Shown piece by piece: positions 13,549-51,272 of a stretch of 64,000 nucleotides of DNA. How positions within the stretch are numbered: the first letter of the stretch is position 1; each line of letters opens with the position of its first letter. This DNA is from Cornus controversa. Its lineage: Eukaryota; Streptophyta; Magnoliopsida; Cornales; Cornaceae. A model generated the notes under the pieces. That model made no database searches. It was not told the origin of the DNA and saw nothing but the letters and a program-made list of their open reading frames with translations. The position numbers and the translations under genes were made by a program. The stretch spans positions 14,012,501 to 14,076,500 of the forward strand of contig CM048845.1 in NCBI GenBank assembly GCA_026545225.1, given 5' to 3'.

Positions 13549-14916
13549 ATGATTCATTTTATTGGCAGTAGACTTCAACATACAAGGCATATTGCTTCAA
13601 TTACATGCCATGTATATTTGTTTTCAACCTCATCAGTCAATCCAGTCCTGAGTAGTTCAAATTCAACAGACCCACATTCTCTTACAGTCTCTTACTTACA
13701 AAATTCATGTGGGTTGTCCTTAGAATCAGCTATTTCAGCTTCTAAGAAGCTCCAATTTGAAAAAACTGACCAACCAGACTCAGTCTTGAACCTTTTAAAA
13801 ACCCACGGTTTAACTCAGACCCATATAAAAAATCTGATAACAAATCGTCCTCTGATACTTCTAGCTGATCCACACAAAACCCTCAAACCCAATATTGAGT
13901 TGTTTGAATCTTTAGGACTTTCTGGCACTAACCTTGTAAAAGTGCTCAAAAAACATCCGGGTGTGCTTGAAACTGATGCACATAAAGTTGTTGGCCTTTT
14001 CAAAACTTATGGTTTCAGTGAAAAGCAAATTTCAAGCTTAACCATGAAGCGTCCAGCTTTATATTTATGCAATGCACGCAACTTTAAGCCAAAGTTGGAA
14101 TATTTCAAATCTTTGGGCTTTTCAGATGCAGAAATTGCACAGATATTGTCATCTGAACCTTCTATCCTTCAAAGAAGCCTTGAAAACCAAATCATACCTT
14201 CTGTTCAAGTCCTTAGACGTATTCTTGGCACCAATGAGGGTGTCTTGAGAGCAATTAAAGCATGCTACCGAATACTTGAATCTAATTTGGAGAAGATGCT
14301 GGTACCAAATATTGCAATATTGTTGAATCATGGTGTACCCAAATCAAATGTTCTAAAATTGTTTATGATTCAACCAAAGTCCCTACTCTTAAGAAGTTAC
14401 CGATTTAGTGAGGTGGTCAGTGAAGTTGAAAAATTGGGTTTTGATCCCAGAAATCTGCTATTCTTGTTAGCCATCCGTTCGATTGCACTCAATAGCAAAT
14501 CACTTTGGGAGCGTAAATTGGGAGTTTTTTCTAGTTTTGGTTTGTCAGAGGATGACATTATTTCAGCATTCAAGTTAGAACCAATGTGCATGCTTGCTTC
14601 AGAGGAGAAGATCAGGAAAGTAATGGGCTTCTTTATTAATCAGCTGAAATTGAAGCCTAAAGTGATTTCCAAGAATTCTTTTCTTTTGAAATATAGCTTG
14701 GAGAAGAGGATTATTCCAAGGTGTTCAGTTCTACAACTTTTGATGATGAAAAATCTGATCAAGGGAGATACGAGTTTAATGTATGCACTTCACATGCCTG
14801 AAAAGATGTTCGTGGGGAGGTTTGTGAACAAGTACCAGGATGTTATTCCTGAAGTCGTTGATGCACGCCAAGGCAAGATACAATTTCAAGGGTTTCCCAG
14901 TAATTTAAGAACATGA
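13549..14916 (+). CDS. mTERF-family protein, copy A (intact)
   Basis: 455-residue open frame of the mitochondrial transcription termination factor family. These are nuclear-encoded helical-repeat proteins that bind nucleic acid in mitochondria or plastids and act in transcription, termination, intron splicing or ribosome biogenesis. The N-terminus (residues 1-30) is rich in Arg, His and Ser with few acids and ends FSTSS, as in an organelle presequence, probably mitochondrial. From about residue 80 to 400 there are roughly nine degenerate 30-35-residue units with the pattern LKPNIELFESLGLSGTNLVK or LGFSDAEIAQIL, the leucine/proline spacing of mTERF motifs. Length is usual for a plant mTERF. 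The ATG used is the first Met of the homologous frame; a spliced start at 13441 would remove the first seven residues and add twenty. Which organelle and which target are unknown. Confidence 0.92.
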   Translation: MIHFIGSRLQHTRHIASITCHVYLFSTSSVNPVLSSSNSTDPHSLTVSYLQNSCGLSLESAISASKKLQFEKTDQPDSVLNLLKTHGLTQTHIKNLITNRPLILLADPHKTLKPNIELFESLGLSGTNLVKVLKKHPGVLETDAHKVVGLFKTYGFSEKQISSLTMKRPALYLCNARNFKPKLEYFKSLGFSDAEIAQILSSEPSILQRSLENQIIPSVQVLRRILGTNEGVLRAIKACYRILESNLEKMLVPNIAILLNHGVPKSNVLKLFMIQPKSLLLRSYRFSEVVSEVEKLGFDPRNLLFLLAIRSIALNSKSLWERKLGVFSSFGLSEDDIISAFKLEPMCMLASEEKIRKVMGFFINQLKLKPKVISKNSFLLKYSLEKRIIPRCSVLQLLMMKNLIKGDTSLMYALHMPEKMFVGRFVNKYQDVIPEVVDARQGKIQFQGFPSNLRT

Positions 14917-16402
14917 ATGGTTGTAATATTTGTGGAATTTAAGAACAGCTTTACTATCATGTATTCAACAAGTGCATTGCAAATAGCCATTGGGAGCTTA
15001 TATGGTAGTTGTATGGGTAGCGGCAGTGGCAGTCTAAAATACAGCTCAGGAGAAGTTCCCCTAGCATGCATTAGTTCCAAAGTAGGAACAGTGTCAATTG
15101 AAGGATTGCAAAGTCCTATAAACCATGGCATTTCGTAGAAGTTTGCTTTTTATGCTTTAAGATTGATTTAATTCAATTTTCACAATCTAAGCATCATTCT
15201 GTTGTTCTTTTACGATGATGTCATGAGGATTCAATTTGTTTCCTCCTACTCTTTTTTACTTGAACTACTGGTTCGTTGGTTTGCATTGACCCATTTTAGT
15301 TGTAATTTTTTATCTGTTATGTGCTTTCACTGCATAGCACACTGAACAGAGCTGTCATTTTCTCAAATAGAGAAAATTAATGCAGGTGATTCCTTTTACT
15401 AATGGCTTGGCATCCTCTAGATGCCCGATCAATTCCACTTTCTGAAGCTTCCAGGTTGATTATTTTAGTTTATCAGCTAATCATAAATTTATTTGACTTC
15501 TTCAGAGAGTTTGTGCTTTGGTTGGCATTATGCAAGACTTGCTAGTTGCCATTTTAAGTAATGCAAGACTCACCATGTTAAGTAAGACCATTCTTAACTT
15601 AATTTTAACTAATTGCATTATTGTATCATATGGATGGTGTCTGTTTCAGGGGGCTTTAGCTCAGCCCCATTGCATAGGTGTTGCCTGCATTTATCCATTA
15701 GAAAGCTATGATAGAGCGTGGGCATCTTTTAATGCCTGAAGTACATTTTTTTATTCAGCTTGCAAAATTTTGGATTCTCCCAACGAGCTGATTTGCACTT
15801 CGTTATCAGGCATTTCTGTATTCGTCTCTCAGATGTGAGGGAAGTGACTCATTCATGTTGAACATTCTCAGTCTTTCAGAGCCTTTATTTCCCTGTACCC
15901 TTTCTAAGTTCTATAGCTTTTATCTACAGTGTAGTTGATGCTTAGACTTTTGCTCAGCCAGAAACAAGATGCTATTGTGTCCGGATGTTGGCCTGTGACT
16001 ATCTTCATTCTCCAATGGCTATATGCTCTGGCAATTTGTTCAGAAGTAGATTAAATTGAGCTGGACATTGTTTTCTAACCAAAGTGTCGTGAGCTTAATT
16101 CTATAGTTGTATGTAACTATGTATGGTCTACTAGAACTGGTGATTTTACAGTTGAGAAGAGATCTGTTCTGTCATCTATTGTACCTGTCATAATAAGATC
16201 CATATTATCTGAAGAATTATTGGGTCATTTGTGTGAAAATCTTATAATGTATCAAGGTCATTCAAGCATCCTCATGATTTGTCCAATATGGTGCACTGAC
16301 CAATCTGCTGTTGTCATTTGTACTACTTACCTGGCCTGTATTCACCCATGTTATGCATATATTCATTGAAAATAATATATTATCCTGTGAGGGAACTTGT
16401 GG
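14917..16402 (+). other. mTERF 3' flank module, unit A
   Basis: No intact gene. The sequence matches the 3' flanks of copies B (31630 onward) and C (51273 onward) over long blocks, including a repeated TTCATTGAAAATAATATATT-type segment, so it was duplicated with the mTERF gene. Intact-looking frames such as 14917-15138 and 15518-15739 are not conserved between copies. Part of it probably derives from an older mTERF paralogue (see 32791-33030). Confidence 0.6.
16061..16402. repeat. Direct repeat bracketing the 5.3-kb insertion, left copy
   Basis: 16061-16402 (starts CTGGACATTGTTTTCTAACC) is repeated at 21661-22013 with few differences. Unit B has a single copy near 33920-34255. The 5.26 kb between the copies is absent from B. 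The long flank duplication is far larger than a transposon target duplication, so recombination or template switching may have been involved. Confidence 0.8.
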
Positions 16403-24125: not shown

Positions 24126-24541
24126 ATCACACCCATGTTTTTCAATATGATGAAAAAGGAGACCGAATGACTACAATCAATGATGCTAGCAAAAGGGCCA
24201 ATGTTATGAGTTTGGAATTGTCACCTAACTGTGAATTTTGGTATGATATGTCATCTAGGATGTATAAGGACATATGAGGGTGTTGAATTAATCTTCAATT
24301 ATTTTGATGATTACGAACGTTTGAACTAGGCCTTATTAGATTGATTTTTATGCAATCTTCTGAAAATTAAATTAGTGGATTCAGAGGCTTCTTTATGCAT
24401 AAGGAATATGTTAGTTGAGGTTGAGTTTGTAACAATTTTGAAATTCCTACCTTTGCTTTTTTCTTCTCCAATGGCATTGTATGTTATAAAAGGTGACTCA
24501 TTAGTTGTCGAACGAGAGGAGTAGCATATGATGATGATGTT

Positions 24542-24948
24542 TGTAAGTACAAAAAATTGCTTAGCTATTTATTGCTAATTAATTTGATGCACACACCCAA
24601 TAAAATTAAGAATACAATATTTTTAGAGAGAAAATCAAGAGAGGATTCGAGGATCCTTTTCATTCATATGTCCTTGGATATTTATACAAGTTGGGATTTG
24701 AATCCTTCTAGGATTCAAATTTCCTTATTTGCAACTATCTTTACTCTCAAGGATTTGAATTCCTTTTTGAGCTTGGACTTATATTTGGACAGGACCGTTT
24801 TGGCCTTTTAATGGGGCGACTAACTCCATTCATTTTTTCAAAATAATCATTTGGGTCTTCTGCTGATACTTGGGCTCAAACTGACTTGGGCTTGGTCCAT
24901 TTGTGTATCAGTTCGGCCCATTGGATCAAGTAAGATTTTTACCCAACA
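24542..24948 (-). mobile_element. Gypsy LTR, truncated element copy in unit A
   Basis: Counterpart of the 3' LTR at 35592-35966 in unit B, and alignable with the 5' LTR at 45083-45469. It keeps a segment (GGATATTTATACAAGTTGGG) that was deleted from the B LTR but is present in the 5' LTR. The purine-rich tract (TTGCCCCCATTCTC on plus) follows directly. The internal sequence continues to 27396, where the unit stops. Confidence 0.85.
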
Positions 24949-25261
24949 TATTGCCCCCATTCTCTTCAATTATGAGCTTTTGTCATACTGGAGGGAATTT
25001 GTATAGGTTTTTGTAATGATTTCACTACTTATATCGAGGTCCCTCATTTAATATTGGGGTACTAACAATGGCACTGAGTACGTAAGTGATCTCTTCATGT
25101 TGCCCTTTGTACTTTGTCTTGATACTTGTCATTTTCAGCCACAAATCTTCTACAACTGATTGCCTTCTCTTCCAGATTTATTTTCTTTTGATCTTCCTGG
25201 TACCTATTTGTCTTCGTATTTTAGTCTTCATCATTTTATCCGCATCTTTTTCTTCTTTACG

Positions 25262-27281
25262 ATGTCTTCCAATGATAGCAATCGTATCATTTCTAACAAT
25301 CAAGAGGTCATAATGTCTATTTCTTTTCTCCCAGTTGCAGAAACTACCCAACCCACTATTGTGGCTGGGGAAACAGTCACATCCAATCAGGGTGTGGTTG
25401 TTGCTTCGGTGACTTGGTAGTTGGTTGACATCGAGAGAATAAAAGAGGAATGTCGTATTCTAACGACGTCATAATCGAGGGTTACCTCTTAGACTCTGAT
25501 TATAGTGTTGGGGAAGGAGTCAAGGAAGGCGAAGTCCTTTTCTTAGCTTCTCACTTAAAGACTTTTAGATTTCATCTTCACCCTTTTTTCAGTTTCGTTC
25601 TTTTCAAATTGAAGCTTGCGCCACTTCAGTTAAACCCTAATTTTTTTTTTTTTTGCATTATTTCATGCTTACTTTCTTTGAACCATATTCATAAACATAA
25701 CCTACATTTGAATGATCCTCTATTCTGCTACCCTTTTTATCGGGTTAGATCGAAAGATAATCGTTATCATCTGTTCCCTAATAAAGACATAATTTTTTTT
25801 TGATACTCCTATTTCTGACAAGTTGTGAAAGGAAAAACTTGTTTTGGTGAAGGGGGTTTGAAATGTTAGGGCGACTCAACACTTCCCCATTCCCAGTGCC
25901 TTTGGTGATGTTGTGATTCCTTCTTTTACTCTTTCTGGCAAGTCCTTTTTGTAGGTACCCTAAGATATTTTTCTATAATAACTCTTTTCTTTTCATAACT
26001 TTGTTCTATTTTTCTTTGTTTTACTGCTAAACGGATTGAGTTTTTGAATGAGAAAGTTTGAAGTATTCGCCCTTCTGTGCAGAAGTATTTGTCACGTCGC
26101 CAACTTCAAGCTACTACTTGTAATTCTTCGGTTGAGTCCTCTTCTTTGTATCCTGTTTTAGATCCTAAGATGGAGATGCCGGAGCCCAAAACGAGAAGGG
26201 AATATTCTGGTTCTGGCCATCTTAAGGCCAAGAACTTGGAGGGGAGGTCTAAGGCTCATCATGACAAGAATAAGTTTGATGCCCCCTCTTCCCTTCAGAA
26301 AAAGGCTTCTTCTAGTGCTACTCCTATGCCCAAGTGCCAGAAGCTAATGGCCGATGCCATGAAGGGTCAGAGTTCATTTTCTTCAATTCTGACTCTATCT
26401 GATCCTGCTAGTGGCACAGTTGATGAGCCGTTCGCTGGCTCGTCCGAATGGTGGGCGCCAGACTTGAAGAAGTCTGATGGCTCATTTTTTATGGTGGGGG
26501 ACTGTGCTGCCCTTGATCGTGAAGTGATAGGGGCTCTTGCTCATGGGATATGGCTTCCCAGGGATGAGCTCCACTAACAAGAAGCTAACAGGGATGAGCT
26601 CATTGCCAATGCGCCTCTTCATATCATGGAGGTTTGTTTCATCATATCCTCTGTGTATTTCTTTACTTGCCCTTTTTTATGTCCCTATTCTAACTTCATT
26701 CGTCTTGTTGTGTTGCAGAGTGCATATATGACCATATCCCTCTATAAGGCTCTGGAGGTCGAACGTCTGAACGGACGCAAGGCCGAAAACCTTGAGGGGA
26801 AAGAGAAGTTGCTGACCAAGTCTCTTGCTGAAAAGCAAAAAGCTCTTGGTTATTTAAATAGAGGGCCCTGGAGGCCGAAGAGAAGGTTGCTGAGCTCGAG
26901 GCGATGCTGCAGGTTTGCAAGTTTGGGAGACTTAAGATGTACCAGTGGTTTCTAAAAATAATAGCTTTGATGCTTGCTGACAGCTTTCGTTATGGCTTCA
27001 AGCAAGGAGGGAAGCCTAAAACTGAATGGGAATAGGAAGATCTTGATGAGTTTGACGTTTATCAAGCTATTGAGTCGTCAGATGAGTATGGTATTCCTGT
27101 ACCTGGTGAAGCCGAATGCAAGTTCGCAGAATTTCTTAAGAGTTCATGCTCGGTTCCTCCCCCTCCTCCTCCTCTGTTTGATCAGGTTGTGCCAGAGGAG
27201 CCAGCCTAAGCTAAAAAGGGCATCCCGATTGTAGACTTCTTTGATCAGGACTTTAACAAGGAGGATATGGCAGCTCCCTAG
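25262..27281 (+). pseudogene. Antisense gene of Tat-type gypsy element, unit A copy
   Basis: Runs opposite to the element's polyprotein. Pieces in order: an N-terminal start (25262), a conserved block RIKEECRI, then in a shifted frame GYLLDSDYSVGEGVKEGEVL and a hydrophobic LAPLQLNPNF block that recall the plant family annotated as putative gypsy-type transposon protein. Next come a basic Ser/Lys-rich region (26077-26577), a coiled coil (YKALEVERLNGRKAEN and onward) and an acidic tail ending near DFFDQDFNKEDM. Introns probably separate the blocks. Several stops and frame changes, including a C-to-T stop near the end, make it non-functional here. The family assignment is from remembered motif pattern only. 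Confidence 0.55.
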
Positions 27282-27396
27282 GGTTAACTTTTGTAGTTTT
27301 TTTTTTTTTTTGTAATGCTCAAAAAGAGCTCTTTTCTTTTGAGGGATAACTTGTTCCCTCCTTCTTATAATTTCCATTTTGATCAATGCAAAACAT

Positions 27397-29181: not shown

Positions 29182-29219
29182 TACGGTACTCCAGCGGTAT
29201 TCAATACTTTCTCCTATTG

Positions 29220-29864
29220 TAGGGGTGCAAATTGGGCGAGCTAATTTAAGCCCAATTTGATTTTTCACGAGCTTGGACAACCACTTTTACAATTAGGGTT
29301 GAGCTTGGGTTGAAAAATCTCAACCCGTCGAATTTAATTAGGGGTGAGCTTGGGTTAAAGTGCTAGCAACCCGAGTCCAATCCAAATCTAAACCCGAATT
29401 CTAATTTTATCTTTTATATATATATATTTTTATTTTAAATATATTATACATAATATTCAAATTATGATCACTTTTTCTTTTTAGCTTCTTTTGTGTAAAT
29501 CTTAATTTATTGTATGTTAACACTTTGGAGAATTAATTTTCTAAGAATTTGTTTGTATTTTTTAGGCATTTGTATTAAATTATTAAAAATTTGTATACTT
29601 TAAAGTAATCTAATCTAGAACTAATTCAAGATCACATTAAAGTTTTAGTTTGAAGAATGGCCATATAGGCAACCGAATTAACCTAACTTTTTAATCCGAA
29701 ATTTTAACCCGAGTTACAAACTCAAGTTTAAAAATTTAAAAATGGTTGAACTTGGGTTAAGTATTTAGGATTAGAAGTCAAGTTAGGATTGAGTTATAAT
29801 TAAACATTTCATATGATGAGTTGAGCTTAAATTATATCTCCAACTCATTCAAGTTGTAACCCTA
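29220..29864. mobile_element. hAT-like non-autonomous element (unit B copy)
   Basis: Begins TAGGGGTGCAAATTGGGCG and ends with inverted GTTGTAACCCTA. Orthologous in position to 12251-13158 but with a single copy of the 253-bp segment. Its left end is closer to the hAT consensus than the unit A copy. Confidence 0.65.
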
Positions 29865-30066
29865 ATTTGTTGTAATAAAAATATGAAGAGTAATATAAGT
29901 TATTTTGAAATAAAAATAGAGAGAAGAGATGAGTAATTTCAAATGGGAGATTATCGTCCCTTACTAATATTGCGAGGAGGTTTTCGTAATCGAACCTACA
30001 GTGTAATTTAGTCACCAAAATATAAACAGGTTTGCCGCGACACTGTTCGGTACTCGGTAGTGGTCG

Positions 30067-30075
30067 ATATATATA
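30067..30075 (+). promoter_or_regulatory. Putative TATA box of mTERF copy B
   Basis: ATATATATA followed by AACGACATCGTC, identical in arrangement to copy A. The leader to the upstream ATG (30162) is also conserved, so the promoter of this copy may still be active although the gene is broken. Confidence 0.4.
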
Positions 30076-30161
30076 GTTAAACGACATCGTCTATGTATTG
30101 TTTCATAAAAATGTTTACCAATTCTTTCCAGGGCTTTTCTGGTTGATCGAAGCGAACCCAA

Positions 30162-30220
30162 ATGAAGAGGGAAGCCATCGCACTGCACAGAAGTATACAT
30201 AATCTCAACTCTCAAATCTG
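30162..30220 (+). other. Possible upstream exon of mTERF copy B
   Basis: Same 59-nt ATG-to-GTAAGT segment as in copy A, with two substitutions. The intron would be 30221-30281, 61 bp, ending TTTTATTGGCAG. The alternative TCAG acceptor present in copies A and C is lost here (TCTGAT), which favours the conserved GGCAG site. Confidence 0.5.
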
Positions 30221-30261
30221 GTAAGTTTATATATATCTATATATATATATATATCTGATCA

Positions 30262-31629
30262 ATGATTCATTTTATTGGCAGTAGACTTCAACATACAAGG
30301 CATATTGCTTCAATTACATGCCATGTATATTTGTTTTCAACCTCATCAGTCAATCCAGTCCTGGGTAGTTCAAATTCAACAGACCCACATTCTCTTACAG
30401 TCTCTTACTTACAAAACTCATGTGGGTTGTCCTTAGAATCAGCTATTTCAGCTTCTAAGAAGCTCCAATTTGAAAAAACTGACCAACCAGACTCAGTCTT
30501 GAACCTTTTAAAAACCCACGGTTTAACTCAGACCCATATAAAAAATCTGATAACAAGTCGTCCTCTGATACTTCTAGCTGATCCACACAAAACCCTCAAA
30601 CCCAATATTGAGTTGTTTGAATCTTTAGGACTTTCTGGCACTAACCTTGTAAAAGTGCTCAAAAAACATCCGGGTGTGCTTGAAACTGATGCACATAAAG
30701 TTGTTGGCCTTTTCAAAACTTATGGTTTCAGTGAAAAGTAAATTTCAAGCTTAACCATGAAGCGTCCAGCTTTATATTTATGCAATGCACGCAACTTTAA
30801 GCCAAAGTTGGAATATTTCAAATCTTTAGGCTTTTCAGATGCAGAAATTGCACAGATATTGTCATCTGAACCTTATATCCTTCAAAGAAGCCTTGAAAAT
30901 CAAATCATACCTTCTGTTCAAGTCATTAGACGTATTGTTGGCACCAATGAGGATGTCTTGAAAGCAATCAAAAGATTCTATGGAATACTTGAATTTAATT
31001 TGGAGAAGGTGCTGGTACCAAATATTGCAATCTTGTTAGATCATGGTATACCCAAGTCAAACATTCTAAAATTGTTTATGTTTCAACCAAAGTCCCTACT
31101 TTTAAGAAATTATGGATTGAATGAGGTGGTCAGCAAAGTTGAAAAAATGGGTTTTAATCCCACAAGTTTGCAATTCGTGTTAGCCATCCGTTCGATTGCA
31201 ATCATGAGTAAATCACGTTGGGAGCATAAATTGGAAGTTTATTCTAGTTTTGGTTTGTCAGAAGATGACATTATTTCAGCATTCAAGTTAGAACCAATGT
31301 GCATGCTTGCTTCAGAGGAGAAGATCAGGAAAGTAATGGGCTTCTTTATTAATCAGCTGAAATTGAAGCCTAAAGTGATTTCCAAGAATTCTTTTCTTTT
31401 GAAATACAGCTTGGAGAAGAGGATTATTCCAAGGTGTTCAGTTCTACAACTTTTGATGATGAAAAATCTGATCAAGGGAGATATGAGTTTAATGTATGCA
31501 CTTCACATGCCTGAAAAGATGTTCGTGGGGAGGTTTGTGAATAAGTACCAGGATATTATTCCTGAAGTCGTTGATGCACGCCAAGGCAAGATACAATTTC
31601 AAGGGTTTCTCATTAATTTAAGAACATGA
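30262..31629 (+). pseudogene. mTERF-family protein, copy B, single premature stop
   Basis: Colinear with copy A over all 455 codons and without a frameshift, but codon 160 is TAA (30739-30741) where copy A has CAA (Gln), a C-to-T change. The frame resumes at once and runs to the same terminus (290-residue frame from 30757). The stop falls after about two mTERF motifs, so the predicted product is a 159-residue fragment holding the presequence. Residues 1-199 and 340-455 are almost identical to copy A, while residues about 200-330 differ at about thirty positions. Possibilities: a recent pseudogene, a truncated targeted peptide, or an error at one base. The intact remainder argues the stop is recent. 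Confidence 0.85.
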
Positions 31630-34600
31630 ATGGTTGTAATATTTGTGGAATTTAAGAACAGCTTTACTATCATGTATTCAACAAGTCCATAGCAAATAGC
31701 CATTGGGAGCTTATATGGTAGTTGTATGGGTAGCGGCAGTGGCAGTCTAAAATACAGCACAGGAGAAGTTCCCCTAGCACGCATTAGTTCCGAAGGAGGA
31801 ACGGTGTCAATTGAAGGATTGCAAAGTCCTATAAACCATGGCATTTTGTAGAAGTTTGCTTTTTATGCTTTAAGATTGATTGAATTCAATTTTCACAATT
31901 TAAGCATCATTCTGTTGTTCTTTTACGATGATGTCTTGAGGATCCAATTTGTTTCCTCCTACTCTTTTTTACTTGAACTACTGGTTCGTTGGTTTGCATT
32001 GACCCATTTCAGTTGTAATTTTGTTCCTGTTATGTGCTTTCACTGCATAGCACACTGAACAGAGCTGTCATTTTCTCAAATAGAGAAAATTAATGCAGGT
32101 GATTCCTTTTACTAATGGCTTGGCATCCTCTAGATGTCCGATCAATTCCACTTTCTGAAGCTTCCAGGTTGATTATTTGAGTTTCTCAGCTGATCATAAA
32201 ATTATTTGACTTCTTCAGAGAGTTTGTGCTTTGGTTGGCGTTATGCAAGACTTGCCAGTTGCCATGTTAAGTAATGCAAGACTCACCATGTTAAGTAAGA
32301 CCCATTCTTAACTTAATTTTAACTAATGGCATTATTGCATAGGCGTTACCTTCATCTTTTAATGCCTGAAGTACATTTTTTGATTCAGCTGACAAAAAAT
32401 TGCATTCTCCTAACCAGCTAACTCGCATTTCATTACCAGTGATTTCCATATATTGGGAGGCATCTCTTACCTTGGCATCTTTCTCAGATGTCGGAGAAGT
32501 GACTCATTCATGTTGAACATTCTCAGTCTCTCTCCTCCTTTATTTACCTGTACCCTCTTTAAGTTCCTTAGCTTTTCCACAGTGTGACTATCTCCATTCT
32601 CCAATGGCTATATTCTCTTCAAATTCTGCATCCCCCAGCCTCTGTTTTTGTACCTTCATTGATTGGTACGTACACCAAAATTTCAAGCTTTTACTCATCC
32701 AAAGATATCCCTATGGTAGAATGTGCCAGACATCAGGCATAACAAAGGTATCCCCATTGAAGCACTGAATAGTTTAGCAAGATTGTCCAGGAAGTTGCCA
32801 AGTTAGGTTTCGAACCCATGGATCTACTACTTATTCTAGCCATCCTATCAATGGCAGTAATTAGAAATGATCTCTTTGGAAAAAAAAAAAAAAATTGCAA
32901 ACTTATTAGCAGTTTTGGTTTGTCTGAGAATGAGTTATGCTTTTCCTTGTGAACAAACTGGATTTTGAGCCTTTCCTTGGCATCTGGATGTATTAAGGGG
33001 GATATAACCAGCTTTGGTTTGTATAGCACATTGTACAGAGCTGTCATTTTCTCAAATAACATGCTCGATCAACTCCACTTTCAGAAGCTTCCAGTTTGAT
33101 TATTTGAATTTATGAACTAATCATAAAATTGTTTGACTTCTTCAGAGAGCTTTTGCTTTGGTGGGCGTTATGCAAGACTTGCCAGTTGCCACTTTCAGAA
33201 GCTTTCAGTAATGCAAGATTCACCCTGTTAAGTAAGACCATTCTTAACTTAATTTTAACTAATGGCATTATTGTATCATATGGATGGTGCCTGTTTCAGG
33301 GGGCTTTAGCTCAGCCCCATTGCATAGGTGTTGCCTGCATCTATCCATTAGAAAGCTAGATAGAGCGTGGGCATCTTTTAATGCCTGAAGTACATTTTTT
33401 GATTCAGCTTACAAAATTTTGGATTCTCCCAACCAGCTGATTTGCACTTCATTATCAGGCATTTCTGTATTCGTTCTATAGCCTTTATCGACAATGTAGT
33501 TGATGCTTAGACTTTTGCTCAGCCAGAAACAAGATGCTATTGTGTCCGGATGTTGGCGTGTGACTAACTTCATTCTCCAATGGCTATATGCTCTTCAAAT
33601 TCTGCATCCCCCAACCTCTGTTTTTGTACCTTCATTGATTGGAACATACACCAACATTTCAATCTTTTACTCATCCAAAGATATCCCCATGGTAGAATGT
33701 GGTAGACTTCAGGCATAACAAAGGTAGCCCTGTTCAGCTCAAATCTCCTTCACAGTTTTATCAAATCTTGCTTCCTTGAAGCATTGAATAGTTTAGCAAG
33801 ATTGTCCAGGAAGTTGCCAAGTATCAGATTTTGTTCTTAACATTAGCGAGGCAAGATATAATTCTAGGGTTTTACATAGTTCTGGCAATTTGTTCAGAAG
33901 TAGATTAAATTGAGCTGGACATTGTGTTCTAACCCAAGTGTTGTAAGCTTAATTCTATAGTTGTATGTAACTATGTATGGTCTACTAGAACTGGTGATAT
34001 TACAGTTGAGGAGATCTGTTCTGTCATCTATTGTACCTGTCATAATAAGATCCATATTATCTGAAGAATTATTGGGTCATTTGTGTGAAAATCTTATAAT
34101 GTATCAAGGTCATTCAAGAATCCTCATAATTTGTCCAATATGGTGCACTGAGCAATCTGCGGTTGTCATTTGCACTATTTACCTGGCCTGTATTCACCCA
34201 AGTTGTTATGCATATATTCATTGAAAATACTATATTACCCTGTGACGGAACTTGTAAAGGTAGATCCCAGTAACTTACTAATGCCATGGCCTCAAATGTT
34301 CTCTTCTTTCGACCTCGTAATCGGTTTTTTTGTTATGGTTGTTGATACAGGGTATCCGGAATTGTACTGTACTTTCCATTGCAATCAATGATGCAACAAC
34401 ATTAAATCGACCATGCAACACCACTAAATCGAGGATACAATGATTTGATGTGAAGATGTTGTATTATCAATAGCCTTACTTGTGTCAGTTCATCCATACC
34501 CTTGTTATGTAAGCTTATATTTGGGATGAGTTGCCAATTCAATTTGTGGACCAAATTGTGTTAAATTAACATCAGGAACCATTAAACTTCATTTGAATTA

Positions 34601-35966: not shown

Positions 35967-35985
35967 CATTGCCCCCATTCTCTTT
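35967..35985 (-). other. Polypurine tract of gypsy element
   Basis: Plus strand CATTGCCCCCATTCTCTTT; on minus this is AAAGAGAATGGGGGCAATG abutting the 3' LTR, the expected plus-strand primer position. Confidence 0.8.
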
Positions 35986-36279: not shown

Positions 36280-38325
36280 ATGTCTTTCAGTGATAGCGAT
36301 CGTAACCTTTCTGACAATTAAGAAATCACAATGTCTTGTTCTTCGCTCCTAGTCTTAGAAACTACCCAACCCACTACTGTGGCTAGGAAACAATCACATC
36401 CAATCAGGGTGTGGTTGTTGCTTTGGTGACTAAGCAGTTGGTTGACATCGAGAGAATAAGAGAGGAATGTCGTATTCCTAATGACGTCGTCATAATCAAT
36501 GGTTACTTCTTAAACTCTAATTATAGTGTTGGGGAAGGAGTCAAGGAAGGCGAAGTTCTTTTCTCAGCTTCTCACTTGAAGAATTTCAGATTTCCTTTTC
36601 ACCTTTTTTTCAGTTTCGTTCTTTTCAAATTGAAGTTTGTGCCGCTTTAGTTAAACCCTAATTTTTTCTCATTATTTCCTACTTACTTTCTTTGAACCAT
36701 GTTCATAAACTTAACCTACATCTAAATGATCTTCTGATCTGCTACTCTCTTCATCGGGTTAGATCAGAAGATAATCGTAATCATCTATTCCCTAATAAAG
36801 ACTAAAAAATTTGTTTTGATACTTCCACTTCTGACAAGTTGTGGAAGGAAAAACTTGTTTTGGTGAAGGGGGCCTGGAATGTTAGGGTGACTCAACACTT
36901 TCCCATTCCCAGTGCCTTTGGTGACATTGTGATTCCTTCCTTTACTCTTTCTGGTAAGTCTTTTTGTAGGTACCCTAGGATGTTTTTCTGCAAGAACTCT
37001 TTTCTTTTCATAACTTTGTTCTGCTTTTCTTTGTTTTACAGCTGAACAGATTGAGTTTTTGAATGAGAAAGTTTGGAGTATTCACCCTTTTGTGAAGAAG
37101 TATTTGTCATGTCGCCAACTTCAACCTACTGCTTGTAGTGCTTTAGTTGAGTCCTTTTCTTTGTATCTTACTTCAGATCCTGAGATAGAGATGTTGGAGC
37201 CCAAAACGAGAAGGGGATCTTCTTGTTCTGGTCATCTTAAGGCCAAGAACTCTGAGGGGAGGTCTAAGGCTCAACATGACAAGAACAAGTTTGTTGCCCC
37301 CTCTTCCCCTCAGAAGAGGACTTCTTCTGGTGCTGCTCCTATGCCCAAGCGCCAGAAGCTGATTGCGGATGCCATGAAGGGTCAGAGTTCCTTTTCTTCG
37401 GCTCAACTTTATCTGATCCTGCCAGTGGAGCAATTGATAAGTCGTTTGTTGGCTCGTCCGAACGGTGGGCTCCAGACTTGAAGAAGTCTGATGGCTCATT
37501 TTTTATGGTGGGGGACTGTGTTGTCCTTGACTGTGAAGTGATGGGGGCTCTTGCTCGTGGGATCTGGCTTCCCAGGGATGAGCACTGTTAACAATAAGCT
37601 ATCAGGGATTAGCTCATTGCCAATGTGCCTCTTCATATCATGGAGGTTTGTTTCATCATATCCTTTGTGTATTTCTTTACTTGCCCCTTTTTTATGTCTC
37701 TGTTCTGACTTCGTTCGTCTTATTGTGTTGTAGAGTGCATATATGACTATTTCCCTCTATAAGGCTCTGGAGGTCGAACATCTGAACGGACGTTAGGTCG
37801 AAAACCTTGAGAGGAAGGTGAAGTTGCTAACCAAGTCTCTTGTTGAAATGCAAAAGGCTCTTGGTTATTTTGAGCAGAGGGCCCTGGAGGTCGAAGAGAA
37901 GGTTGTTGAGCTCAAGGTGATGCTGCAGGTTTGCAAGTCTGGGGGACTGAGATATGCCAGCAGTTTCTGAAGATCCCAGCTTTGAAGCTTGCTGACGACT
38001 TTCGTTATGGCTTCGAACAATGAGGGAAGCCTGAAGCTGAACGGGACTACAAAGATCTTGATGAGTTTGCTACTGATCAGGCTATTGAACCGTCTGGCGT
38101 GTATGACATTCCTGTACTTGGTGAAGTCGAATGCAAGTTCGCAAACTTTCTCAAGAGTTCGTGCTCGGCTCCTCCTCCTTCTACCTCGGTTGTTGTTCCT
38201 CATCCTCATCCTCTGTCTGATCAGGTCGAGCCAAGGAGCAAGCCCAAGCTAAAAAGGGCACCCCGATTGTGGACTTCTTTGATCATGGCTTTAACAATGA
38301 GAATGGGGCAGCTCCCCAAGGTTAA
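36280..38325 (+). pseudogene. Antisense gene of the gypsy element, unit B copy
   Basis: Opposite in direction to gag-pol. Blocks in order: an N-terminal start at 36280; IREECRIPNDVVIINGYFLN and YSVGEGVKEGEVLFSASHLK (36411-36650), with FRFPFHLFFSFVLFKLKFVPL recalling the plant gypsy-type transposon protein family; a basic Lys/Ser-rich region (37059-37481); DGSFFMVGDC; a coiled coil from YKALEVE (about 37750-37930); DDFRYGFEQ; and an acidic tail with DFFDHGFNNEN ending near 38325. Donor-like GTAAGT and GGTTTG sites between blocks suggest introns. It has stops (for example TAA in the N-terminal block). B keeps some frames that A lost and the reverse, so the ancestor was intact. Function unknown. 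Confidence 0.55.
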
Positions 38326-38639
38326 CTCTTGTAGTTTTTTTTTTTTTTGTAATGCTTAGAACAAGCTCTTTTCTTTTGAGGGATAACTTGTACCCTCCTT
38401 CTTGTAATTGTCATTCTGATCAATGCAAAACATCTTTTTTACGCTTCAGTTTCTCCAAACTTATTTTCAGATTTTAATTTGATACTTCTGCTCTTGATAG
38501 CTATTTGCACTGATAATTACCTCGGTAGGTTGGGTCCTTAGCTTTTTCTTAGACTGGAAACTCCTTTCCAATTTTGTTTAGTAGTGTAGACGATCAGTGT
38601 TCGACACTTGATGTCTCATCTTTTTTTTTCACTAAAGAA

Positions 38640-40306: not shown

Positions 40307-41363
40307 CTACGATTTTTCAGCATTATTCTCAGTGACCCTTTGTAGCACCCAGTCTCTGAGACTGAGCACTCTATATTTCACCTTCTTGTCATAACTATTT
40401 TTGATCATCTTCAGATAAGACGCAAGCCTTATTTGAGTTGCCTCCCTCTTCTCTTCCAAGAGATCTAGATTTTGTTCAAGCAGTTGATCATTCTGCCCCC
40501 TCTCCAGTACCTCTATTCTGGTTGTTGGGGTAGACAGCTCGGATGGTATCACTGTTTCAGATCCATAGACCAGGCAGAACGGACTTTCTCCGGTCGAACG
40601 CCTGGGCGTCGTTCGGTAAGCCCAAAGCACTTTAGGTAACTCGTTTAGCCATCTGCCCTTTCGGTCCTCCAGCCTCTTTCGAACACATTCAAAGGTGGTA
40701 CAATTGGTTATTTCTGCTTGGTCGTTCCCTTGTGGATATGACCGTGATGAGAACTTCTGGTTGATCCGATATTTCTTGAAGAATTTCTCGATCAGCCGAT
40801 TGTCAAAGTTTGTGGCATTGTCTATGATAATGGACTCTGGAAACCCTGAATCAGTAGATGATATTACTCTATATGAACCTTTTCACTTACACATGGGTGA
40901 TCGTTGCGTAAACTTCTGCTTCAACCCATTTTGTGAAGTAGTCGGTGGCCAGAATGGCGTATTTTTTGTTGTTAGCAGCCTTTGGGAGAGGTCCCACCGA
41001 ATCCATCCCCCATTTTATAAATGGCCATGGACTAGCCATGTTGGTCAGATCTTCTAGGGTTTGATGGGTTACCCTTCCATGTCACTGGCATTTATCATAT
41101 TTTCTGGTGTGTTCTTCGACTTCTCTAATCATGTGTGGCCGGAAGTACCCTTGGGTAATGGCCTTATAGGCCAGCAAACATCCTCCTGAATGGTTTCCAC
41201 ATACTCCTTCATGAATTCTGGAAAGAATTTCTTTCACTTTTGGAGGTGCCACACACCTTAGGTACGGTCCTGAGAACAACCTCCTGCACAGGTGTTCGCC
41301 GATCAAGGAATATTGGGAAGAATTCATTCTGATTTTTCTTGCCTCTTCTTTTGAATCTAGCAA
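40307..41363 (-). pseudogene. Integrase region of gypsy polyprotein
   Basis: 41363-41082 carries the zinc-binding N-terminus (HEGVCGNHSGGCLLAYKAIT...KYDKCQ). About 41050-40690 gives the catalytic core across two frames: WGMDSVGPLPKAANNKKYAI, LATDYFTKWVEAE, then IIIDNATNFDN, then SYPQGNDQAEITN. The DDE triad residues are all still present. 40630-40307 gives the C-terminal part (LWAYRTTPRRSTGESPF...YGSETVIPSEL). At least two frameshifts and stops break it, so no functional integrase is made. Confidence 0.85.
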
Positions 41364-41823
41364 TACTCCGTTAACAAGATAAACCTTGATAGGATCCTTC
41401 AGCTGGGTTGGTTCTGTACGACCAGCACCTACTTATGGACATGGATGCTAGGCATTTGCAAAGAGTCAATTGGCGTTATTCTGATTAGATCCGGCTGAGT
41501 TGCTGAGGCTGAACATGTTAGCATATTGAAATTTGAGAAACCTTGACTTGGTCAAAGTCTTTGAGCTCTCTTCCCACTAAGTCTTTGTAGGTTTTCATGC
41601 GATCATCTTTTGAAGAATAATCCCCATTAACCTGTTTAACGATTAGTTGAGAATCACTAAAAACTTGTAAGTTTTTTACCTGCAGTGTTCGTTGCAGTCT
41701 TAGTTCTGCTAACAGGGCCTCGTACTCGACTTCATTGTTTGATGCAGGGTACTCTAGATGGATTGTCTGCTGTAAAATAGTTATGTCAGGAGTCTAGATT
41801 TTCACACTAATGCCCGATCATGT

Positions 41824-42132
41824 TTATGTCGATGATCCATGGACAAAGAGTTTCCATTCGGGTTGAACTGAAACATTTAATTCTTCATCATTTTTTGTCT
41901 CATATTCCAGTAAAAAATCTACAACTGCTTGTCCTTTTATGGCGGTCCGAGGTTTATAGGTTATGTCGTAGACGCCCAACTCAATTGCCCATTTGATGAC
42001 TCCTCCCGACTGATTAGGTTTTTGAAGAATCGCTATGATCGTGAATTTGGTCCGGACAATGTTTGGGTGAGCTTCAAAATAGTGCCTAAGCTTCCTCTTT
42101 GCTTGGACCAGGGCCATCACAATCTCTTCCAT
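41824..42132 (-). pseudogene. RNase H region of gypsy polyprotein
   Basis: Encodes MEEIVMALVQAKRKLRHYFE, then KWAIELGVYDITYKPRTAIK and GQAVVDFLLEYE. This is the conserved end of the RT connection and start of RNase H in Tat/Athila-type polyproteins. Stops separate it from the RT and integrase parts. Confidence 0.8.
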
Positions 42133-42347
42133 CTTCGATACCTTTGTTCTGCCTCAGTCATAGTTTTGCTTGAGTAGAATACTGGGTATTTCCTTTTATT
42201 GAGCTCTTTGATCAGAACTGCGCTAGTAGCCTTTCGAGATATCGCAAGGTATAAATACAAAGGCTCTCCAGCCTCAGGTGCTGAAAGTGTTGGCAAGTGA
42301 ATTAAGTACTACTTGAGTTTTGCCAAGGCTTCGTTCTGCTCAGCTCC

Positions 42348-43135
42348 CTATACCTCTTTTCCCTTTGCCCTGATGGAATTAAAAAAGGGCTTGCATTTGT
42401 CAAAGAGCCGAGAGATGAATCTACTCAGAGCGGCAATGCGCCCTGCCAAAATCCAAATGTCCCTGTGAGTTTTCGGTTCTTCATTCTGAAGAAAGGCCTT
42501 CACCAATAATGGGCTTGCTTCTATTCCTGTTCGGTTTACTATGTGCCCCAGGAACTGTCCTGAAGAAACCTCGAAGGAGCACTTTGATGGGTTCAGTTTC
42601 ATGTTATGTTTTCATAGGGTGTCGATTACCTCCTGCAGATGTCTCAGGTGATCCTTTTTTTCTAGACTTTTTACCACCATGTCGTCTATGTATGCTTTTA
42701 CCATTTGGCCCATCAGATTTTTAAAGACTTTGTTGATTAGTCACTAGTAAGTGGCCCCAGCGTTTTTTAGACCGAATGACATTACTCTGTAACAGTAGAT
42801 TCCTTTTTTAGTGATGAACCAAGTCTTTTCTTGATCGTTTGGGTTCATCGGGATCTGATTGTATCCAGAGTATGCATCAAGTAACGCCAACCGTTCATAT
42901 CCAATAATGGCATCGACCATTTGATCGATCTTCGGTAGATGAAAACTATCTTTAGGACAAGTCTTGTTCAAATTGGTGAAGTCTATGCAGATTCGCCACT
43001 TGCCATTCTTTTTCTAGACCACTACCACATTTGAGAGCCAGTCCGGTAACTAAACTTCTCTGATAAAGCTTGTCTGAAGGAGGCGGTCTACCTCTGCTGC
43101 TATGATCTGATTCTTCTCAAGAGCGAATCGCCTTT
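42348..43135 (-). pseudogene. Reverse transcriptase region of gypsy polyprotein
   Basis: 42971-42744 contains NKTCPKDSFHLPKIDQMVDA, LLDAYSGYNQIPM and VMSFGLKNAGATY. Next come two adjacent stops TAG and TGA where CAG and CGA would be expected (both C-to-T). The frame then continues to AYIDDMVVKSL with the catalytic YIDD intact (about 42665-42700). 42602-42348 gives MKLNPSKCSFEVSSGQFLGH...GRIAALSRFISR. All core RT motifs are visible but the frame is broken. Confidence 0.88.
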
Positions 43136-43495
43136 ACCTTTGTTTCACTGGTGGGTAGCTTGGACTGACGTTGAGTGCAGGACATGATACAGATAGATCA
43201 ATGTCGGGCATGCCTGTGTGATCCCAAGCAAAAACATCGACATTTTTTCTAAGCAATTGTATTAGTTGCGTTCTGTCTTTTTGGCATAAAGATGTCCCAG
43301 ATTTGTGGGATCTTTGCCGGGAACAATCTCTACCTCCTCGATGTGTTCTACCTCCAGGCCCATCTGTTGGAAGGCCGACAAGGTCAAGACGTTTGCGCTG
43401 CTCCATGTATCTACCAATATTCTCTTTACTTCACAGTTGGAGACGATGAGGCTGATCACGAGCGGGTCTTCATGTGGCATCTGGATTTTACTCAT
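43136..43495 (-). pseudogene. Protease region of gypsy polyprotein
   Basis: 43495-43262 encodes PHEDPLVISLIVSNCEVKRI followed by LVDTWSSANVL. The aspartic-protease motif DTG has become DTW (GGG-type codon to TGG), which would cripple the active site. A frameshift leads into the linker LLRKNVDVFAWDHTGMPDID (43406-43134) that precedes RT in this lineage. Confidence 0.82.
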
Positions 43496-43759
43496 GTCCT
43501 CATATGTGAAGACGATTGATACGTTGGCCGAACGGTTATGTACCGAGTGGATTTCTCCAATCCTTTAAAATTTTTGAGCATTCTTGAGGTATAACCGTTT
43601 TTCAAACTTGCTATCTCGATCTGAGGCTGTTCGTCCATGAATAACATTGATAACATGAATGAGAGTAGGGTTCAGCGGTCTATTTTCCTTTTGTTGAGAT
43701 TGATCAGAGGGTTTGGCTTATTCTTCCTGAATGACATACTCTGACAAGCCACCCTTAGT

Positions 43760-44650
43760 GATTAGCCTCCACTTGTTGCCTCAAGCTTCTGCACTCATTG
43801 GTGGCATGGCCGGAATAGTTGTGGAGAGAACAATGATTGTTCTTATCTCTCTGTTCTGGGGATTGTCTGATGGCCGGAGGTGAGCGAAAGATTCCCTTAC
43901 TATTATTTTCATACTAAAGCCTGGCCAGAGATACCTTTAGAGGGGTGATCTTCTTTTCAACCTTTTGTTTTTTTGCAGTTTCCGGTGTAGACGAAAGAAT
44001 AACTCGAGGTGGTTTTGCCTTAGCAACCTGGGTCTTTGTTTGTTGTGCCACAGTGATCAAGGGCGATTGCTGTCTTTTGGCCGCCTCATCCTCTTCTATC
44101 CTTAGATACTTCTAAGCCCGAAAATTCAGGTCGCCCATATCTTTTGGGACGCTTTTTACCATGGATCTGTGGAAGTCTTCTTTTGGAGAGACTGCTATCT
44201 TGAAAGCTTCCACTGTTGCGGTCTGATCTCATTGATCTCTCATTGACATCTCCAATTGAAACGAGTTAGGAAAGATTTCAACGTCTCCCCTTTAACTTGC
44301 CTCATGGTGAATAATGACGAGACTGTCCTCTTCCGTTCCTGGTTTCCCGCGTACTAAGCTACGAATAGCTCGCATAGTCCTGCAAAGTTTGAGATCGAAC
44401 GAGGTGGTTGTTGCTTGAACCAGAGTAATGCTGGTCCAGCCAGACTGGACGGAAAGATTTTGCACATGAGCGTATCGTTTTCGGTATCTAGAGTCATCTT
44501 CTGTTGATACTGGTAGATGTGCTCCACCGGATTTGTCCTCTCATTGAAGGTAGTGAATATAGGCCGGGTGAACCTCCTCAGCCTTTCAATTCTAATTATA
44601 TTCTCCATGAAGGGTGATTCAGTCAGCCTGGTGGCAGCGAGCACTCGGTT
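43760..44650 (-). pseudogene. gag region of gypsy element
   Basis: 44644-44354 encodes the capsid-like segment FNERTNPVEHIYQYQQKM...FPSSLAGPALLWFKQQPPRS, the retrotransposon gag domain. Downstream near 43780-43860 is CSLHNYSGHATNECRSL, a zinc-knuckle-like gag motif. Stops separate the two. It is needed for particle assembly in an active element but is broken here. Confidence 0.82.
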
Positions 44651-45061
44651 AGCTAGATAGCAAGACCGATCACCATTTAATTCATCGATCTGATCTTCGT
44701 TGGGTTGGTCAAGATGAGGTTTCTGCTTGTGGGCTGGTTGTGATAAGAGGCACTCAACGACTGGTTGCTCGATCTGGCCCTTTTATTTCATTGTTGTCCA
44801 GGGTCTCTCACGCTTTTGGCGCATTCGACCCTTGCTTGGAGATCAGCGATCTACTGACGCAAAGCCTCATTTTGCTGGGTTAAGTGCTAAACGCTCTGCT
44901 GTGCCAGAGGATCTTGGATGTTTGGCTATTGGCTATATAGGCGGCACTCCCCTTTGATTCCTAAGGGGTCTGCCCAGATTTACAATGTCATAAGTATTCA
45001 TTCTCGTATCCACCATGATTATAAATTTTTCAAGTTTTTGGAATGGAAAACAATCAAATGC

Positions 45062-49684: not shown

Positions 49685-49762
49685 GAAAGGTTCTATGTAA
49701 TGTTTCTTAGAAAACTTTGCCAATTGTTCTAGGGTTTCTTTGCTTGATCGACACAAACCCAA

Positions 49763-49821
49763 ATGAAGAGGGAAGCCATTGGAGTGCACAGAACCACATA
49801 TAATATTGACTGTCAAATTTG
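49763..49821 (+). other. Possible upstream exon of mTERF copy C
   Basis: 59-nt ATG-to-GTAAGC segment, the same length and frame as in copies A and B. The intron is 49822-49906 (85 bp), mostly a pure (TA)n run, ending TTTTATTAGCAG. A single unspliced frame through the TA run gives a meaningless Ile-Tyr repeat. Confidence 0.5.
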
Positions 49822-49826
49822 GTAAG

Positions 49827-49830
<4 letters not shown>

Positions 49831-49879
<49 letters not shown>
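49831..49879. repeat. (TA)n microsatellite in the mTERF copy C leader intron
   Basis: About 48 bp of pure TA between donor and acceptor. The equivalent introns in A and B have shorter, impure runs, so intron length is set by this microsatellite. Confidence 0.85.
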
Positions 49880-49882
<3 letters not shown>

Positions 49883-49886
49883 TTCA

Positions 49887-51272
49887 ATGATTCGTTTTAT
49901 TAGCAGTAGACTTCAACATACAAGGCATATTGCTTCAATTACATGCCATGTATATTTGTTTTCAACCTCATCAGTCAATCCCATCGTGAGTAGTTCAAAT
50001 TCAACGCAGCCACAATCTCTGACAGTCTCTTACCTATTAAACTCATGTGGGTTGTCCTTAGAATCAGCCATTTCAGCTTCTAAGAAGCTCCAGTTTGAAA
50101 AAACTGATCAACCAGACTCAGTCTTGAACCGTTTGAAAACCCATGGTTTAAATCAGACCCATATAAAAAATCTGATAACAAATTGTCCTCTGATACTTCT
50201 AGCTGATCCACACAAAACCCTCAAACCCAATATTGAGTTGTTTGAATCTTTAGGACTTTCTGGCACTAACCTTGTAAAAGTTCTCAAAAAAAATCCGCGT
50301 GTGCTTGAAACTGATGCACATACAGTTGTCGGAGTTTTCAAAACTTATGGTTTCAGTGAAAAGCAAATTTTAAGCTTAACCATGAAGTTTCCAACTTTAT
50401 ATTTATTAAATGCACACAAAACCTTTAAGCCAAAGTTGGAATATTTCAAATCCTTGGGTTTTTCAAAAGAAGAAATTGCACAGATATTGTCCTCTGAGCC
50501 TTATATCCTTGGAAGAAGCCTTGAAAACCAAATCATACCTTCTGTTCAAGTCATTAGCCGTTTTGTTGGCACCAATGAGGATGTCTTGAGAGCAATCAAA
50601 GCATGCTATCGAATACTTGAATCTAATTTGGAGAAGGTGCTGGAACCAAATATTGCAATCTTGTTGAATCATGGTGTACCCAAGTCAAACGTTCTAAAAT
50701 TGTTTATGATTCAACCAAAGTCCCTACTTTTAGGAAGTTATCGATTTAGTGAGGTGGTCAGCAAAGTTGAAAAAATGGGTTTTGTTCCCACAACTCTGCG
50801 ATTCGTGTTAGCCATCCGTTCGATTACAATCATGAGCAAATCACTTTGGGAGCATAAATTGGGAGTTTATTCTAGTTTTGGGTTGTCAGAAGATGACATT
50901 ATTTCAGCATTCAAGTTACAACCAATGTGTATGCTTGCTTCAGAGGAGAAGATCAGGAAATTAATGGGCTTCTTTGTTAATCAGCTGAAATTGAAGCCTC
51001 AAGTGATTTCCAAGTATCCAGATCTTATGCTACATAGCTTGGAGAAGAGGATTGTTCCAAGGTGTTCAGTTCTGCAACTTTTGATGTCAAAAAATCTGAT
51101 AAAGGGAGATATGAGTTTAATTTATGTAATTAAAATGCCTGAAAAGATGTTTGCAGGGAAGTTTGTGAGCAAGTATCAGGATTTTATTCCTGAAGTCGTT
51201 GAGGCACATCAAGGCAAGATACAATTTCAAGTGTTTTCCATTATGAATGGTTGTAATATTTGTGGATTTTAA
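49887..51272 (+). CDS. mTERF-family protein, copy C (intact)
   Basis: 461-residue frame starting MIRFISSRLQHTRHIAS, same architecture as copy A: an Arg/Ser-rich organelle presequence ending FSTSS (residues 1-30), then about nine mTERF motifs from about residue 80 to 400. No internal stops. It differs from A throughout, for example SLGFSKEEIAQIL and the block KYPDLMLHSLEKRIVP near residue 390 where A and B have KNSFLLKYSLEKRIIP. The C-terminus differs because about 11 bp including the A/B stop region are missing, so the frame runs into former 3' UTR and ends SIMNGCNICGF. I chose the ATG homologous to copy A; the longer frame from 49779 runs through the intron repeat. Probably functional; organelle and target unknown. 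Confidence 0.9.
   Translation: MIRFISSRLQHTRHIASITCHVYLFSTSSVNPIVSSSNSTQPQSLTVSYLLNSCGLSLESAISASKKLQFEKTDQPDSVLNRLKTHGLNQTHIKNLITNCPLILLADPHKTLKPNIELFESLGLSGTNLVKVLKKNPRVLETDAHTVVGVFKTYGFSEKQILSLTMKFPTLYLLNAHKTFKPKLEYFKSLGFSKEEIAQILSSEPYILGRSLENQIIPSVQVISRFVGTNEDVLRAIKACYRILESNLEKVLEPNIAILLNHGVPKSNVLKLFMIQPKSLLLGSYRFSEVVSKVEKMGFVPTTLRFVLAIRSITIMSKSLWEHKLGVYSSFGLSEDDIISAFKLQPMCMLASEEKIRKLMGFFVNQLKLKPQVISKYPDLMLHSLEKRIVPRCSVLQLLMSKNLIKGDMSLIYVIKMPEKMFAGKFVSKYQDFIPEVVEAHQGKIQFQVFSIMNGCNICGF

Follow-up and report, generated by a model that had tools for sequence, protein, structure and literature searches.

Several plant gene families provide points of comparison for the locus studied here, and each source is cited for the parts of it that bear on the comparison. 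Restorer-of-fertility-like (RFL) genes for P-class PPR proteins form tandem clusters with exchange between copies, partial copies, and diversifying selection at PPR motif positions 5 and 35 (PMC7380019, PMC5075784); the discovery of the positions under such selection in RFL proteins was also one foundation of the PPR code (PMC5075784). In the mTERF family, a cluster of nine genes in 70 kb is described on chromosome 1 of Arabidopsis (PMC3471360), and mTERF genes linked to the Rf loci Rfm3 of barley, Rfp1 of rye and Rf9 of wheat have been proposed to play a part in fertility restoration (PMC8035072, PMC8431178, PMC7154926). In this paper we analyze a stretch of 64,000 nucleotides from Cornus controversa (C1:14012501-14076500, hereafter the window), which holds three mTERF genes that we call A, B and C. 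How plant mTERF proteins choose their targets is, to our knowledge, unsolved, and our searches of open-licence papers, preprints not included, brought up neither gene conversion nor selected positions for the repeats of plant mTERF proteins.

An earlier reading of the same DNA (the original prediction) had described the three genes as mosaics of one another. We report that A and B are indeed mosaic in one central block, and that the ratio of nonsynonymous to synonymous substitution rates (dN/dS) exceeds one at four recurring positions of the mTERF repeat. Taking these results together, we consider it probable that the cluster diversifies by ectopic exchange combined with positive selection at recurring repeat residues.

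The mosaic block of copies A and B

All three copies are mTERF genes with a single reading frame, save that the frame of B is interrupted. Against profile PF02536 they score 144.7 bits (A), 150.8 (C), and 43.8 and 91.2 (the two pieces of B), with a cut-off of 23.1; a Pfam scan of these four sequences at E up to 0.01 placed mTERF above the cut-off and returned no PPR model. The first 40 residues of A contain no aspartate or glutamate, as might be expected of a presequence. As assembled, B is a broken copy, its frame being cut by a TAA at codon 160; the original prediction had the right coordinates for B and overlooked this stop. The rest of the frame is open to its end, so that the break looks recent, or else is an assembly error. 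The start of C is the ATG at 49887, and the start at 49779 in the list of open reading frames is a TTG upstream of it. Directly 5' of the start codon, all three copies carry AT dinucleotide repeats: at 13500-13548 in A, where they are imperfect, at 30228-30257 in B, and at 49830-49880 in C, where they are longest.

These genes are part of a larger cluster. The genome (772 Mb in 61 contigs) yielded 163 mTERF profile matches, which is a lower bound, and 12 full-length copies including A lie at 13.92-14.81 Mb of C1, the others being 83-92% identical to A. We refer to the twelve as m01 (L019), m02 (L011), A, B, C, m07-m10 and m12-m14. Interrupted or fragmentary copies are scattered between them, and the broken copies L021-L023 and L025 were left out of the alignments. 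A tblastn search of viral contigs found no relatives.

Copies A and B differ at 57 of 1,368 nucleotides, and 44 of these differences lie within nucleotides 661-1020. Over alignment columns 1-1350, the differences occupy 44 of 342 sites in one central tract, versus 11 of 1,005 outside it. At the protein level there are 30 residue differences in alignment codons 223-336 and 8 outside, one of them the stop; the counts made by eye in the original prediction, about thirty inside a central block and about six outside, thus hold, as do its coordinates. A change-point scan restricted to A, B and C places the block at columns 679-983, where 42 of the 46 variable sites separate A from B, versus 13 of 98 outside (0 of 500 shuffles were as extreme). 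When all 12 copies are used, the block covers columns 617-1005, and its edges in A, at 14162 and 14550, are close to the sharp changes that had been noticed near 14200 and 14530.

Selection alone does not account for this pattern, since the synonymous sites jump as well. The synonymous divergence between A and B is 0.014 in the part of the gene on the N-terminal side of the block (the N part), 0.160 in the block, and 0.030 on its C-terminal side (the C part; Fisher p=1.6e-4). Moreover, of the 44 difference sites of the block, 37 have A's state in some other copy as well, and 36 have B's; thus most of the block differences are states shared within the family rather than new mutations. The tree of the block is strongly supported and at odds with the equally well supported trees of the two ends. 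Both ends join A with B (100/99) and reject the pairing of A with m02 (p=0.004 and 0.0003), whereas the block joins A with m02 (100/99) and rejects the pairing of A with B (approximately unbiased test, p=4.5e-7). Even synonymous divergence, or a block tree in agreement with the trees of the ends, had been named beforehand as the outcomes that would speak against exchange, and neither occurred. We conclude that the mosaic structure of A and B is real, and that exchange between copies, as had been proposed, is supported.

The original prediction had also read smaller, changing patches within the block, A resembling C in some stretches and B resembling C in others. The strings quoted for these patches appear in the alignment as stated; what does not stand is the small-scale mosaic. 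Within columns 661-1020, the 22 sites unique to A and the 20 unique to B form 23 runs (shuffled mean 22.0), and an internal scan for patches was equalled by 749 of 1,000 shuffles. Because independent change on two lineages yields the same alternation, the mosaic unit is the entire block and nothing smaller.

The direction of exchange can be judged by comparison with m02. The divergence between A and m02 is low over columns 436-1008 (3/178, 0/50 and 13/342 in successive segments), while that between B and m02 is 5/178, 2/50 and then 43/342, so that the likeness of B to m02 ends at about column 666. Since B jumps away from m02 in the block while A stays near it, B appears to be the recipient; that is, the likelier course suggested by these sequences is that B lost an m02-like block by exchange and that A kept the ancestral sequence. 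A genome search for the donor of B's tract found no close one, the best non-self match among the best candidates scored being 92% identical. When a relic of a further mTERF copy in the window (Table 1) serves as outgroup, for which there are few sites, those unique to A agree with A at 4, with B and C at 4 and with neither at 5, and those unique to B agree with B at 1, with A and C at 5 and with neither at 3.

Alternatively, A may be the recipient: once A and B had arisen by duplication, m02 or a copy closely related to it would have supplied the block of A. This would explain why A's block is 96% identical to m02, which has A's state at 37 of the 44 difference sites. Nevertheless, we regard it as unlikely, since the divergence between A and m02 in the block (13/342) is greater than that between A and B at the ends (10/963, p=0.003), and the shared block therefore looks older than the split of A and B. 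The closeness of A to m02 also starts far to the left of the block, where B has it too.

In another account, which we judge equally unlikely, the duplication of A and B is older, and homogenisation afterwards reached their ends and near flanks, so that the block is merely the stretch left out and neither copy holds a foreign one. The flanks are indeed uneven: A and B diverge by about 9-19% at 12935-13315 and by 18% beyond 15724, and nearer the gene by 0-8% just upstream and by 1-5% for some 700 bp downstream. However, the tree of the N part joins A and B with m02 (98/96), and A's block as well as columns 436-666 of B are m02-like, so that it is B's block alone that breaks the pattern; homogenisation would, in addition, seem to need at least two tracts. 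A transfer into B thus remains our preferred account of the block.

Of all 66 pairs of cluster copies, 10 show heterogeneity along the gene to a degree that none of 100 shuffles attained, which suggests that exchange in the cluster is probably not limited to A and B. On another chromosome, an isolated fragment at C9:21785279-21785547 (L054) has a match that scarcely extends past the exchanged block; it matches A residues 213-315 at 64% identity with two TAA codons, and is 78-81% identical at the DNA level.

Selection at recurring repeat registers

B is omitted from all codon models, which leaves 11 cluster copies. With a separate tree for each part of the gene, model M2a is preferred over M1a in the N part (p=0.0045), the block (p=1.7e-5) and the C part (p=2e-4), while the mean dN/dS of the three parts is 0.51, 0.95 and 0.95. 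Selection thus extends beyond the central block, on which the original prediction had suggested that it might be focused, and the dN/dS of the block itself is 0.74 between A and B and 1.82 (p=0.35) between B and C.

Several of the selected sites are spaced by about 35 codons. We placed the repeats in register on their conserved proline, an origin that in most repeats of the model described below is also the first residue of the short third helix. Mean entropy across the cluster is highest at registers -1, +1, +4 and +5 (1.25, 1.14, 0.92 and 0.92, the next being 0.57), and none of 20,000 circular shifts did as well; the autocorrelation peaks at lag 36. We refer to these four registers as the set. 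A model with one dN/dS for the set and another for all remaining codons gives the set 2.18 in the N part, 2.44 in the block and 2.70 in the C part. When 34 registers are scanned singly, the four in the set are the highest (2.93, 2.48, 1.78 and 2.10; next 1.28), of which only -1, +1 and +5 combine a dN/dS above one with a likelihood-ratio statistic (LRT) above 3.84. Five disjoint pairs of close cluster copies show 47 nonsynonymous and 3 synonymous codons at these registers, versus 122 and 56 in the rest of codons 79-392 (p=1e-4). A tract differing between A and B mainly at selected registers was also considered, and there is no enrichment (4/12 versus 26/102).

Exchange between copies could conceivably produce a spurious register signal. 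We therefore simulated 28 null sets on three trees and analyzed them on one. The mean register dN/dS was 1.01, the 95% point of the LRT was 5.1, and its largest value was 8.5; only one of the 28 sets had both an LRT above 3.84 and a dN/dS above one. The real data treated in the same manner give 2.55 and an LRT of 44.9. Thus, we conclude that dN/dS exceeds one at registers -1, +1, +4 and +5 in the cluster.

Because the registers were read off the cluster, we tested them, fixed beforehand, on other mTERF paralogues of the same genome. We considered 31 other loci, which together with the cluster are part of the 163 profile matches; 23 have an open frame of at least 340 amino acids (aa), and 20 of them fall in the paralogue groups G2 (11 copies, with about 40% identity to A), G3 (4), G4 (3) and G5 (2), with L032, L035 and L055 in no group. 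In the alignment of these groups nothing corresponds to repeats 2 and 3 of A, so that seven of the nine repeats were used, and there is a gap beside the origin of repeat 6. The entropy test covered all 11 copies of G2 and the codon models nine (L031 and L033, 96-98% identical to L030, were left out); G5, with two copies, lies outside the codon models.

The mean entropy of the set is enriched in all four groups (P of 0/20,000, 0.00055, 0.0047 and 0.0065). In the two-ratio model, the registers of G2 have a dN/dS of 3.33, versus 0.72 elsewhere, and exceed one with p=2.8e-17, a signal far beyond the inflation found in the null simulation; the corresponding values for G3 are 2.01, 0.64 and p=0.011. 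The single-register scan of G2 again places the set highest (4.82, 4.08, 2.93 and 1.78; next 1.51). Registers that taken singly exceed one with an LRT above 3.84 are -1, +1 and +4 in G2, and +1 and +5 in G3 and G4 combined; in the scans of the cluster, G2, and G3 with G4, none of the scanned registers outside the set is significantly above one. The set has dN/dS above one, therefore, in two of the three other groups modelled.

Plain relaxed constraint would explain the variable registers differently: these would be drifting mTERF genes, in which the four registers are simply tolerant surface positions. The high mean dN/dS of each part, the broken frame of B, and the several fragmentary or interrupted copies would all fit this account. 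But relaxation cannot raise dN/dS above one, and the estimates for the set are 1.8-2.9 in the cluster and 1.8-4.8 in G2, with other cluster registers (-14, -13, -4, +6 and +14) remaining at 0.08-0.40. We therefore hold this account to be quite improbable, and prefer positive selection on the set.

We next consider where these residues lie in the protein. An AlphaFold2 model of A, built from 18 sequences, has a predicted local distance difference test score (pLDDT) of 83.4 and a predicted template modelling score (pTM) of 0.71. The model is a superhelix of three-helix repeats resembling human MTERF1: in a Foldseek search of the PDB, MTERF1 chains (3mva, 5crk) rank first and third with E of about 5e-6 and TMt 0.75, the best being MTERF1 on DNA (3mva). 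The predicted repeats mostly consist of two helices and a short third helix, which repeat 7 lacks as a separate helix. The short helices are predicted to begin at residues 101, 137, 169, 204, 240, 276, 345 and 377, which are the register origins; at origins 240 and 377 the proline is missing in A itself and the predicted helix start is still there. Registers -1 and +5 would thus flank the short helix, with +1 and +4 inside it.

The direct-readout contacts of MTERF1 are R162, R202, R251, R350 and R387 (PMC4705650, in the part of the account considered). With its numbering anchored on the R162A, F243A and Y288A variants in PDB titles, R202, F243 and R350 fall at +1, R169 at +5, R162 at -2 and R251 at +9. 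That is, two of the four contacts that could be placed (R202 and R350) are at +1; we infer that -1, +4 and +5 may face nucleic acid as well.

Features of the window

The coordinates of the features discussed in this paper are collected in Table 1.

Table 1. Positions, within the window, of the mTERF copies and of the features associated with them.
Feature	Position	Strand	Remarks
mTERF copy A	13549..14916	+	one open frame, 455 aa; Pfam PF02536 E=4e-42
mTERF copy B	30262..31629	+	frame broken at codon 160; PF02536 matches on both pieces
In-frame TAA of B	30739..30741	+	A has CAA at 14026-14028
mTERF copy C	49887..51272	+	one open frame, 461 aa counted from ATG
Tract of B with ancestry unlike its ends; likelier recipient	30875..31263	+	
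Matching tract of A, m02-like sequence apparently kept	14162..14550	+	
Selected registers, repeats 1-9 of A	13846..14694	+	codons -1, +1, +4, +5 around origin codons
Register-origin codons in A	13849, 13957, 14053, 14158, 14266, 14374, 14479, 14581, 14677	+	8 of 9 at a short-third-helix start; repeat 7 uncertain
Duplicated unit with A	12213..15626	+	pairs with 29182-32340 in two matches, 86.9% and 93.1% identity
Duplicated unit with B	29182..32340	+	paired with the A unit
Duplicated unit with C	49692..51749	+	matches the A and B units at about 89%
Relic of a further, more divergent mTERF copy	32773..32937	+	matches A residues 286-337, 47% identity

The relic lies just downstream of the B unit, and is followed by another copy of the 3' flank of the family (33061 onward). 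Upstream of A, a tandem duplication of 250 bp (96.8% identical) occupies 12488-12990. Between the mTERF units, a second duplicated segment (86.5%) is present at 24127-27399 and 35184-38436; its open frame at 26062-26577, the one tested there, has no Pfam match. The minus strand carries a degenerate retroelement at 40307-44782, with weak Pfam matches to gag, RNase H and an integrase zinc-binding domain, all below the curated cut-off. It also carries, at 61804-62166, a match to a SWIM zinc finger, presumably as in transposases of the Mutator-like element (MULE) type. Tandemly repeated units with offsets of about 240-570 bp stand at 1-941 and recur some 4 kb away, at 4181-4723.

Interpretation and comparison with known systems

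Several of our observations weigh against the view that exchange and positive selection together diversify this cluster. The evidence comes from one genome, and the codon models were run with our own scripts rather than with PAML. As the registers were picked from the cluster, its dN/dS values and close-pair count are biased upward. Within the cluster, register +4 alone falls short of significance (LRT 2.8), the variation of repeat 1 within the set is limited to -1, and repeat 7 varies at neither -1 nor +1. Among the other groups, the registers of G4 (1.71, versus 0.64 elsewhere) are not significantly above one (p=0.07), and the G3 result (LRT 6.5) is weak given the mild inflation of the test under the null. 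Taken alone, +5 in G2 (LRT 3.3), -1 in G3 and G4 (LRT 2.0) and +4 in G3 and G4 (dN/dS 0.77) are not significant; in addition, the variability of -2 in G3 and G5 equals or exceeds that of -1, and G3 shows no rise at +4. Two of the MTERF1 contacts, R251 and R162, fall at registers other than these four, and no register could be assigned to R387. Finally, B's block could be an assembly artefact, a haplotype switch or a mis-joined copy, as near-identical tandem copies are hard to assemble and the assembly offers no close donor; we consider this very improbable, however, since the tract keeps an open frame and is colinear with the other copies, the window is without N, and the register result is independent of B.

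We still judge diversification by ectopic exchange and positive selection to be the probable explanation. Exchange, by gene conversion or paired crossovers, would carry segments between the copies of the cluster. A and B are sister copies save for one tract of about 390 bp, roughly repeats 5-7, in which A is m02-like and B is not; the donor of B's tract may have been a copy that we did not find in the assembly, A having kept the ancestral sequence, and B now carries a stop codon as well. The residues at -1, +1, +4 and +5 may line the nucleic-acid-binding groove and set sequence specificity, in which case point changes there, together with swaps of repeat blocks, could produce new binding specificities. 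The most likely driver would be conflict with fast-changing mitochondrial sequences, as has been proposed for restorer-like PPR proteins.

More tentatively, we suggest that plant mTERF repeats may have a modular recognition code, in which the residues at -1, +1, +4 and +5 around its short third helix would let each repeat recognise one nucleotide or a few. Clusters such as this one might then gain specificities by residue change and block swaps, and form a second, PPR-independent reservoir of restorers in conflict with mitochondria. The register signal narrows the candidate specificity residues to a short list that can be tested, and A and B are natural variants, differing mainly in about three repeats, that could be used to compare specificity. 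Such a code would also point to a mechanism by which the mTERF genes proposed as restorers in cereals might act.

Human MTERF1 binds duplex DNA at one mitochondrial site, and is not a diversifying cluster. It shares with the genes described here the mTERF-repeat fold, and, at register +1, the contacts R202 and R350 and the residue F243. A banana NLR cluster holds mTERF remnants, and the exchange analyzed in the part of that account considered is between NLR genes (PMC3017797). The Arabidopsis chromosome 1 cluster is, like ours, a tandem mTERF expansion in a plant nuclear genome, for which the part of the account considered reports neither exchange nor selected repeat positions (PMC3471360). 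The mTERF genes at cereal Rf loci belong to the same family as this cluster and are known, in the parts of those accounts considered, by genetic association; a link of our cluster to fertility restoration would draw on that literature. The original prediction had drawn a likeness to RFL-type PPR genes, and this analogy is strengthened by selection at recurring registers, with significance absent in G4. The mTERF genes belong to another repeat family, and their selected positions are -1, +1, +4 and +5 around a short third helix. Like the RFL genes, they show exchange, broken copies, and diversifying selection at periodic positions, and by analogy the cluster appears to parallel the restorer-like PPR genes.

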